Source: Candidatus Altimarinota bacterium (GTDB lineage: Bacteria > Patescibacteriota > Gracilibacteria > Absconditabacterales > Absconditicoccaceae). Taken from it: a stretch of DNA of 60,457 nt. The translations under genes and the position numbers were made by a program. Shown here one piece after another: positions 37,080-49,526 of this stretch. Each line of letters starts with the position of its first letter. Position 1 is the first letter of the stretch. The notes under the pieces were generated by a model. The model did no database searches. It was not told where the DNA came from and saw only the letters and a program-made list of their open reading frames with translations. The stretch lies in the NCBI GenBank assembly GCA_027046965.1, contig JALTWR010000007.1:1-60457 (forward strand), given 5' to 3'.

Positions 37080-37153
37080 AGCGGGCGACGGGACTTGAAC
37101 CCGCAACCCTCTGCTTGGAAGGCAGATGCTCTAGCCAATTGAGCTACGCCCGC
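37080..37153 (-). tRNA. tRNA-Gly (UCC)
   Basis: Anticodon loop UUCCAAG, acceptor GCGGGCG and U73, without encoded CCA. Its acceptor stem, T arm and discriminator are identical to those of tRNA-Gly(UCA) at 49373. Confidence 0.95.
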
Positions 37154-48659: not shown

Positions 48660-48680
48660 TTAAGATATTATCTACTAAAA

Positions 48681-48756
48681 CGCCCCCGGCGGGACTTGAA
48701 CCCGCGATTTCCGGCGTGAGAGGCCGGCGTCCTGGACCGAGCTAGACGACGAGGGC
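48681..48756 (-). tRNA. tRNA-Glu (CUC)
   Basis: Anticodon loop CCUCUCA or CUCUCAC depending on stem register; the Glu-type start GCCCUCGUCGUCUAG and G73 favour Glu with CUC. It is a second glutamate isoacceptor (the other is UUC at 37368), unexpected in so AT-rich a genome. Confidence 0.85.
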
Positions 48757-48772
48757 ACAAAAGACGGAAGAT

Positions 48773-48846
48773 TACCCCCGGCAGGATTCGAACCTGCGAC
48801 CGCCGGCTTAGAAGGCCGTTGCTCTATCCAGCTGAGCTACGGGGGC
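48773..48846 (-). tRNA. tRNA-Arg (UCU)
   Basis: Anticodon loop CUUCUAA, acceptor GCCCCCG closed by a G-U pair, A73, no encoded CCA. Confidence 0.93.
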
Positions 48847-48940
48847 ACATTAACAAAGTTTAAATAACACAAAAAAAGATTTTTCGCCTCCTCCCCCATC
48901 TGGGGAAATCCAGCAATTGCTCCAAATACCTTTAACCTAA

Positions 48941-49017
48941 TGGTGGAGCCGAGGGGAGTCGAACCCCTGGCCTCCTGGGTGCAAACCAGGCGCTCTAGCC
49001 AACTGAGCTACGGCCCC
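48941..49017 (-). tRNA. tRNA-Ala (UGC)
   Basis: Anticodon loop UUUGCAC, acceptor GGGGCCG, A73, with CCA encoded. Confidence 0.95.
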
Positions 49018-49035
49018 ATAAAACGCTTTTAGATT

Positions 49036-49118
49036 TGGGCAGGGTAGGATTCGAACCTACGTAGCCTAACGGCGGCGGGTTTACAGCCCGCTGCATTTGA
49101 CCACTCTGCCACCTGCCC
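49036..49118 (-). tRNA. tRNA-Tyr (GUA)
   Basis: Long variable arm, anticodon loop CUGUAAA, acceptor GGGCAGG, A73, no encoded CCA. Confidence 0.95.
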
Positions 49119-49119
49119 A

Positions 49120-49359
49120 TTATTTGCCTCCGGTTTCTACCATAACAGGAACTCCTCATCACAAAGGAACTACTCAAAACACCATCAATCAACCCAAAAC
49201 CACCAATACCCCCCCCAACAAAACATATCCTTGTGAGGTCCCAAACAAATACTTTTCCATCCACTCCTGAGGCCCAAACATTTCCTCCAAATGCCTTGCA
49301 AATACTATCATACCCATGCCCGCTGCTATCAACAAAATCCCCACTAATATTCTTTGCAT
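49120..49359 (-). CDS. Hypothetical small membrane protein (79 aa)
   Basis: Two hydrophobic segments (RILVGILLIAAGMGMIVFA and GYVLLGGVLVVLGGLMVFG) around a short acidic loop. Four UGA glycines lie in the C-terminal third. It is wedged between tRNA-Gly(UCA) and tRNA-Tyr and must share their transcript. No family recognised. Confidence 0.6.
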
Positions 49360-49372
49360 ATTTGTGATACCT

Positions 49373-49446
49373 AGCGGGCGACGGGACTTGAACCCGTGCA
49401 GACAGAGCTGAATTCTGCCATGCTACACCAATTACATCACGCCCGC
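49373..49446 (-). tRNA. tRNA-Gly (UCA), decodes UGA as glycine
   Basis: A 74-base cloverleaf: acceptor GCGGGCG/CGCCCGC, D stem AUGU/GCAU, anticodon stem GCAGA/UCUGU (one G-U), loop AUUCAGC, T arm ACGGG/CCCGU and U73. The anticodon at positions 34-36 is UCA. Acceptor stem, T arm and U73 equal those of tRNA-Gly(UCC) in this window, so GlyRS should charge it. The short variable loop and seven-base-pair acceptor exclude tRNA-Sec. It is the first gene after a strong promoter. Confidence 0.93.
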
Positions 49447-49498: not shown

Positions 49499-49526
49499 AT
49501 TATAAAAATTTGTCAATCTATTTCAA
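49499..49526 (-). promoter_or_regulatory. Promoter of tRNA-Gly(UCA) and the downstream tRNA/infC run
   Basis: TTGAAA and TATAAT with a 16-base spacer on the minus strand, about 46 bases before the tRNA. The -35 box lies against the stop codon of the preceding DUF4012-like gene. A second TATAAT closer to the tRNA lacks a -35. Confidence 0.65.

Follow-up and report, generated by a model that had tools for sequence, protein, structure and literature searches.

A predicted UGA-reading tRNA-Gly(UCA) conserved across Absconditabacterales (SR1), and its contrast with the BD1-5 tRNA

Introduction

The genetic code of SR1 bacteria, in which UGA specifies glycine, is NCBI code 25. UGA is likewise read as sense, after loss of RF2, in Mollicutes, where it is decoded as Trp by a tRNA-Trp(UCA); that tRNA differs from the one considered here in its amino acid and identity elements and in possessing A37, and Mollicutes need no discrimination between UGA and UGG because UGG there also encodes Trp. 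A tRNA-Gly(UCA) of Gracilibacteria, or BD1-5, was reportedly described by Rinke in 2013, and the tRNA-Gly(UCA) of SR1 is said to be divergent and to be glycylated by the SR1 GlyRS (Campbell et al. 2013, PNAS 110:5540).

Both the use of UGA for glycine in SR1 and the charging of tRNA-Gly(UCA) by GlyRS are published, as set out in two papers (PMC8629427; PMC13293708), the second of which summarises the glycylation and recoding result of Campbell 2013 and traces the recoding to the last common ancestor of both orders. For BD1-5, UGA recoding is proven, with proteomic support (Hanke 2014, PMC4032931). Here we analyse a tRNA gene with a UCA anticodon within a 60,457-nucleotide stretch of DNA (the window). 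The published SR1 tRNA, with which the gene was compared by description, belongs to the same order and has the same anticodon and code, and comes from another species. The gene encodes the component that carries out one of the rare changes of the genetic code known in bacteria, a recoding that has already been described; the present comparison adds the testable point that two orders said to inherit a single recoding depend on UGA-reading tRNAs that are almost unrelated to each other. This contrast between SR1 and BD1-5 is the part worth following, and it bears on stop-codon capture and on how opal-reading tRNAs might be designed for fidelity.

Results and Discussion

The tRNA gene and its fold

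ARAGORN assigns the anticodon TCA to the gene (Table 1), and attaches the label SeC only because UGA is read. The Rfam covariance model matches the gene over its full length (RF00005; score 56.1 bits, cut-off 29) and places UCA within the anticodon loop AUUCAGC. Both programs thereby bear out the UCA anticodon proposed in the initial annotation, with no other triplet in that position. The acceptor stem is GCGGGCG/CGCCCGC with discriminator U73, and is followed by U8-G9 and a D stem of AUGU/GCAU; the anticodon stem is GCAGA/UCUGU with the loop A-UUCA-GC, the variable region comprises 4 nt, and the T arm reads ACGGG-UUCAAGU-CCCGU. The earlier description of G1-C72, C2-G71, U73, U8-G9 and the AUGU D stem was accurate. 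Folded as naked RNA, the sequence has a minimum-energy structure other than the cloverleaf, for which the evidence is the covariance-model match together with covariation among relatives.

The glycine identity set of Shulgina and Eddy comprises G1:C72, C2:G71, G3:C70 and U73 (PMC8629427), all of which occur in the UCA tRNA (GCGGGCG...CGCCCGCU). Likewise, the gene displays the features of the SR1-type body, namely the core TGATGTARTTGGTGTAGCAT, the loop A/CUUCAGC and a paired 26:44. To judge from these features, it is a real, functional-looking representative of the published tRNA-Gly(UCA) type.

Table 1. Positions of the tRNA-Gly(UCA) gene, its decoding features and neighbouring elements in the window
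Feature	Coordinates	Strand	Basis
tRNA-Gly(UCA), 74 nt, without encoded CCA	49373..49446	-	ARAGORN; Rfam RF00005, 56.1 bits; found in 43/49 genomes of the order
Anticodon UCA (34-36), pairing with codon UGA	49409..49411	-	ARAGORN (anticodon at position 36); covariance-model alignment
G37, invariant in SR1-type tRNA, beside A36	49408	-	Loop A/CUUCAGC in 37/37 SR1 tRNAs
Position 26 (G), Watson-Crick partner of 44	49419	-	26:44 comparison, 18 distinct sequences
Position 44 (C), partner of 26, giving a 6-bp anticodon stem	49401	-	26:44 comparison, 18 distinct sequences
Sigma-70-like promoter TTGAAA-16-TATAAT, 11/12	49499..49526	-	Consensus score; shuffles
79-aa hydrophobic ORF, 4 in-frame TGA (= Gly)	49120..49359	-	Table 25 translation
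tRNA-Tyr(GUA), next tRNA of the conserved cluster	49035..49119	-	ARAGORN; synteny
tRNA-Ala(UGC), tRNA-Arg(UCU), tRNA-Glu(CUC), same cluster	48680..49017	-	ARAGORN; synteny
tRNA-Gly(UCC), comparator of the initial annotation, apparently not the direct parent	37080..37153	-	ARAGORN; cross-genome comparison; AU test

UGA as a glycine codon

The meaning of UGA was evaluated at RpoB columns conserved to at least 80% among 14 standard-code relatives. In-frame TGA at these columns corresponds to Gly at 14/14 positions in the window's genome, at 105 of 116 across six SR1 genomes, and at 200 of 208 across eight BD1-5-type genomes. The window's genome encodes a single release factor, which scores above the RF1 cut-off and below that of RF2, and whose own gene contains seven in-frame TGA codons. 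Searches for RF2 returned no match in the whole order Absconditabacterales (SR1), and none in families f3-f5, presumably the sister order BD1-5/Gracilibacteria, except for one in the f5 assembly G108, which at 2.7 Mb is unusually large; that match is probably contamination. The anticodon, the absence of RF2 and the alignment of UGA to Gly together support the assignment of the gene as the decoder of UGA. The accompanying idea that its altered arms avoid RF2 competition now lacks an object, because RF2 is absent order-wide.

One dimeric-type GlyRS gene exceeds its cut-off in the window's genome. Bacterial GlyRS normally needs C36, and that of T. thermophilus also needs G10 (PMC9976931). The UCA tRNA retains G1-C72, C2-G71, C35, C50-G64 and U73 of the known bacterial set, but carries A36 and A10 in place of C36 and G10, so the GlyRS would have to tolerate both substitutions.

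We consider it very probable, on the strength of comparative sequence evidence, that the product of this gene is the Absconditabacterales (SR1) tRNA-Gly(UCA), charged by GlyRS, decoding UGA as Gly and ancestral to the order. The single dimeric-type GlyRS would charge this tRNA with glycine via its acceptor end, glycine would then be inserted at in-frame UGA codons, and, RF2 being gone, no release factor would read UGA. The ancestor of the order would already have possessed the gene; since then, the D and anticodon arms would have remained almost unchanged and the acceptor stem would have drifted through compensatory changes.

Conservation across the order

The UCA tRNA occurs in 43 of the 49 genomes of the order; BLAST returned no UCA match in the other six, probably due to incompleteness. 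Its core is matched exactly in 38 named genome-contig records, including the complete genome CP006913 RAAC1_SR1; many of these records are titled Absconditabacterales, SR1 or Absconditabacteria, and a few Gracilibacteria or Peribacteria. The named records place the window's genome in Absconditabacterales. Among 18 distinct UCA sequences, the segment that starts at U8 and closes with the D stem varies only at position 15, and five acceptor-stem pairs have undergone compensatory change; overall, seven pairs have changed on both sides, with 100% of cells paired. This covariation, like the spread over 43 of 49 genomes, speaks against a chance match. Cluster order is also kept across relatives (UCA tRNA, small ORF, Tyr, Ala, Arg(UCU), Glu(CUC)), except that Ala precedes Tyr in a few genomes of the order.

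Alternative identities and origins

Automatic annotation labels the gene SeC, or Trp under code 4, and we give next to no credence to its being tRNA-Sec or tRNA-Trp(UCA). A tRNA-Sec exceeds 90 nt and possesses a long variable arm, whereas the UCA tRNA is 74 nt long with a 7-bp acceptor stem and a 4-nt variable region; tRNA-Trp carries G73 (the genome's own Trp(CCA) ends in G), in contrast to U73 here; and UGA in RpoB aligns to Gly rather than to Trp or Sec. Both identities were rejected on the basis of size, N73 and codon meaning. The initial annotation had instead derived the gene from the resident tRNA-Gly(UCC) by duplication, with subsequent alteration of the D and anticodon arms. The likeness on which this rested is largely real: the two genes have identical acceptor stems, U73 and final 24 bases, and the T arm, described as identical, agrees at 16 of 17 bases, the exception being position 49; within the genome, tRNA-Gly(UCC) and tRNA-Gly(GCC) are jointly nearest to the UCA tRNA (46/71). 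However, tRNA-Gly(GCC) (C11:25624-25697) ends in the same 24 bases, so this match is not specific to UCC, and the resident tRNA-Gly(UCC) differs from the UCA tRNA in its D arm and anticodon arm, with A-G at 26:44, A37 and a variable region of 5 nt rather than 4. Furthermore, of the 18 genomes in which both genes were read, only the window's genome has identical UCA and UCC acceptor stems, and in the other 17 they differ; the UCA gene is found order-wide with fixed synteny; and sisterhood of the genome's own UCA and UCC genes is rejected (AU test, p = 0.006, in trees biased by outgroup tRNAs that were selected for their likeness to the SR1 model). The SR1 UCA consensus agrees with tRNA-Gly(UCC) of standard-code relatives (e.g. 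G049) at 53/71 positions, and with SR1's own UCC at no more than 47/71, a comparison that leans toward its result because the outgroup set was chosen in the same manner. Duplication of the resident gene is thus highly improbable, and the UCA gene is old and common to the whole order rather than a recent copy of the resident glycine tRNA. Its acceptor and T arm are of glycine-tRNA type, for which distant glycine-tRNA ancestry is plausible. The D-arm type (UG-GUGU-AAU..GCAC) names no parent, because it is also found in tRNA-His and tRNA-Trp of relatives. The identity of the ends with the resident UCC and GCC tRNAs is a local trait of the window's genome. It is conceivable, though short of probable, that gene conversion between these three glycine tRNAs produced it, and not parallel change under a common GlyRS constraint: all three possess the stem GCGGGCG/CGCCCGC and end in the same 24 bases, and in relatives the glycine tRNA genes differ among themselves. 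Nevertheless, the pattern is seen in only 1 of 18 genomes and T-stem position 49 is unconverted (A49 versus G49), so plain parallel change fits equally.

The relationship of the ancestral SR1 tRNA to its BD1-5 counterpart raises a further alternative, in which each order recruited its own UGA-reading glycine tRNA, either through two recodings or through one recoding and a replacement. The BD1-5 tRNA, seen in f3-f5 as GCGGGGG-UA-ACAU...CUAAGG-CUUCAAC-CCUUGG...UUCAAAC...CCA, shares with SR1 its function, code, G1-C72, C2-G71 and U73, a 6-bp anticodon stem and C38, but differs in having UA at 8-9, a D loop that lacks GG, A37, a T loop with C60, a longer variable region and an encoded CCA. Correspondingly, the window tRNA lacks the hallmarks of the BD1-5-type body (D arm UAACAU..GUGU, loop CUUCAAC, C60), and the strict pattern GCGG...CCGCT recovered no BD1-5 UCA tRNA, although a looser one did. 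The SR1 consensus and the BD1-5 UCA body are identical at 38/71 positions, near the average of 34/71 for unrelated tRNAs of the window's genome, and it is this low identity, with the differences in the D arm, D loop, T-loop position 60, position 37, variable region and CCA, that argues for separate recruitment. On the other side, RpoB places the two recoded groups side by side, apart from the standard-code families, so that the species tree is more simply explained by one recoding; given such unlike bodies, one recoding would imply that the tRNA diverged beyond recognition or was replaced. A single clade of SR1 and BD1-5 UCA tRNAs is also not rejected by the AU test (p = 0.22, in trees on 71 columns that do not discriminate between one and two origins), the shared glycine-type ends, 6-bp stem and C38 are compatible with common descent, and the literature assigns the recoding to the common ancestor (PMC13293708). 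Separate recruitment therefore remains a serious candidate that we lean slightly against. Somewhat more doubtful still is the fuller proposal that two separately recruited tRNAs, through two recodings or tRNA replacement, converged on a 6-bp stem so that U34 reads UGA and not UGG.

The anticodon arm

In SR1, positions 26 and 44 are paired in all 18 distinct sequences, as A-U in 10 and as G-C in the remaining 8; genus g9 contains both forms. In BD1-5, the pair is C-G in 17/17 sequences. Watson-Crick pairing at 26:44 in both bodies gives an anticodon stem of six pairs; among the 40 other tRNAs of the window's genome such a pair occurs in only five, all A-U. In addition, G37 and C38 are present in all 37 SR1 UCA tRNAs, whereas BD1-5 carries A37 (UUCAA). 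The isopentenyltransferase motif is A36A37A38 (PMC7200024) and that of TrmD is G36G37 (PMC5372735), and A36-G37 of SR1 lies outside both the MiaA/isopentenyltransferase and TrmD motifs. Since a shortened anticodon stem increases near-cognate UGA reading by tRNA-Trp (PMC13092985), we infer by analogy that the lengthened stem together with plain G37 may restrict wobble and perhaps protect UGG; the 6-bp stem and G37 would thus tune decoding such that UGA is read and UGG (Trp) is not. Paired 26:44, G37 and C38 may accordingly show how a cell separates the two meanings, UGA=Gly and UGG=Trp, of a single codon pair. In the literature searched we found no mention of nearly unrelated SR1 and BD1-5 bodies, of six-pair stems, or of SR1 G37 beside A36.

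UCA tRNAs outside the recoded groups

Among 353 genomes of the class, UCA tRNAs with glycine-type ends occur in the two recoded groups, with a single confirmed case elsewhere, in the standard-code genome G144; the remaining UCA-pattern matches were judged by eye not to be tRNA-like. Searches of viral contigs for the SR1, BD1-5 and G144 tRNA bodies found none. G144 encodes its UCA tRNA (contig C1, 4485-4558; L223/L098; ends GCGGGAG...U73, CCA) despite a standard code, the presence of RF2 and an RpoB without TGA. The gene is situated just after a glnA-like ORF, carries A37, and is equally distant from the SR1 (44/71) and BD1-5 (43/71) tRNAs.

Promoter and neighbouring ORF

The "strong promoter of its own" attributed to the gene is partly sustained: an 11/12 match to the consensus lies upstream, with P of about 0.006 in mononucleotide shuffles, but the consensus is not conserved in relatives, whose regions upstream of the UCA genes score no better than their shuffles.

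The small ORF begins 13 nt past the UCA tRNA and runs up to tRNA-Tyr. Its UGA-rich orthologues occupy the same place in most relatives (L022-L050), and GGN and UGA interchange freely at conserved Gly positions. The product is probably a membrane protein; searches of Pfam and NCBIfam gave no family match. CGG or CGA also occurs where relatives have Trp, both in small-ORF orthologues (L023, L027, L028, L034, L040, L043 and others; for example, RNDWAE versus RSD(CGG/CGA)AE) and in SR1 RpoB, where CGG aligns to W in 2/2 cases. These observations agree with the change of CGA/CGG to Trp reported for Absconditabacteria (PMC8629427). Separately, an 8.2-kb contig of the genome (C31; L020 101-178) carries a tRNA with an AAG anticodon, a 6-nt variable region and an encoded CCA, which is unlike the genome's own class II tRNA-Leu genes and possibly derives from a mobile element.
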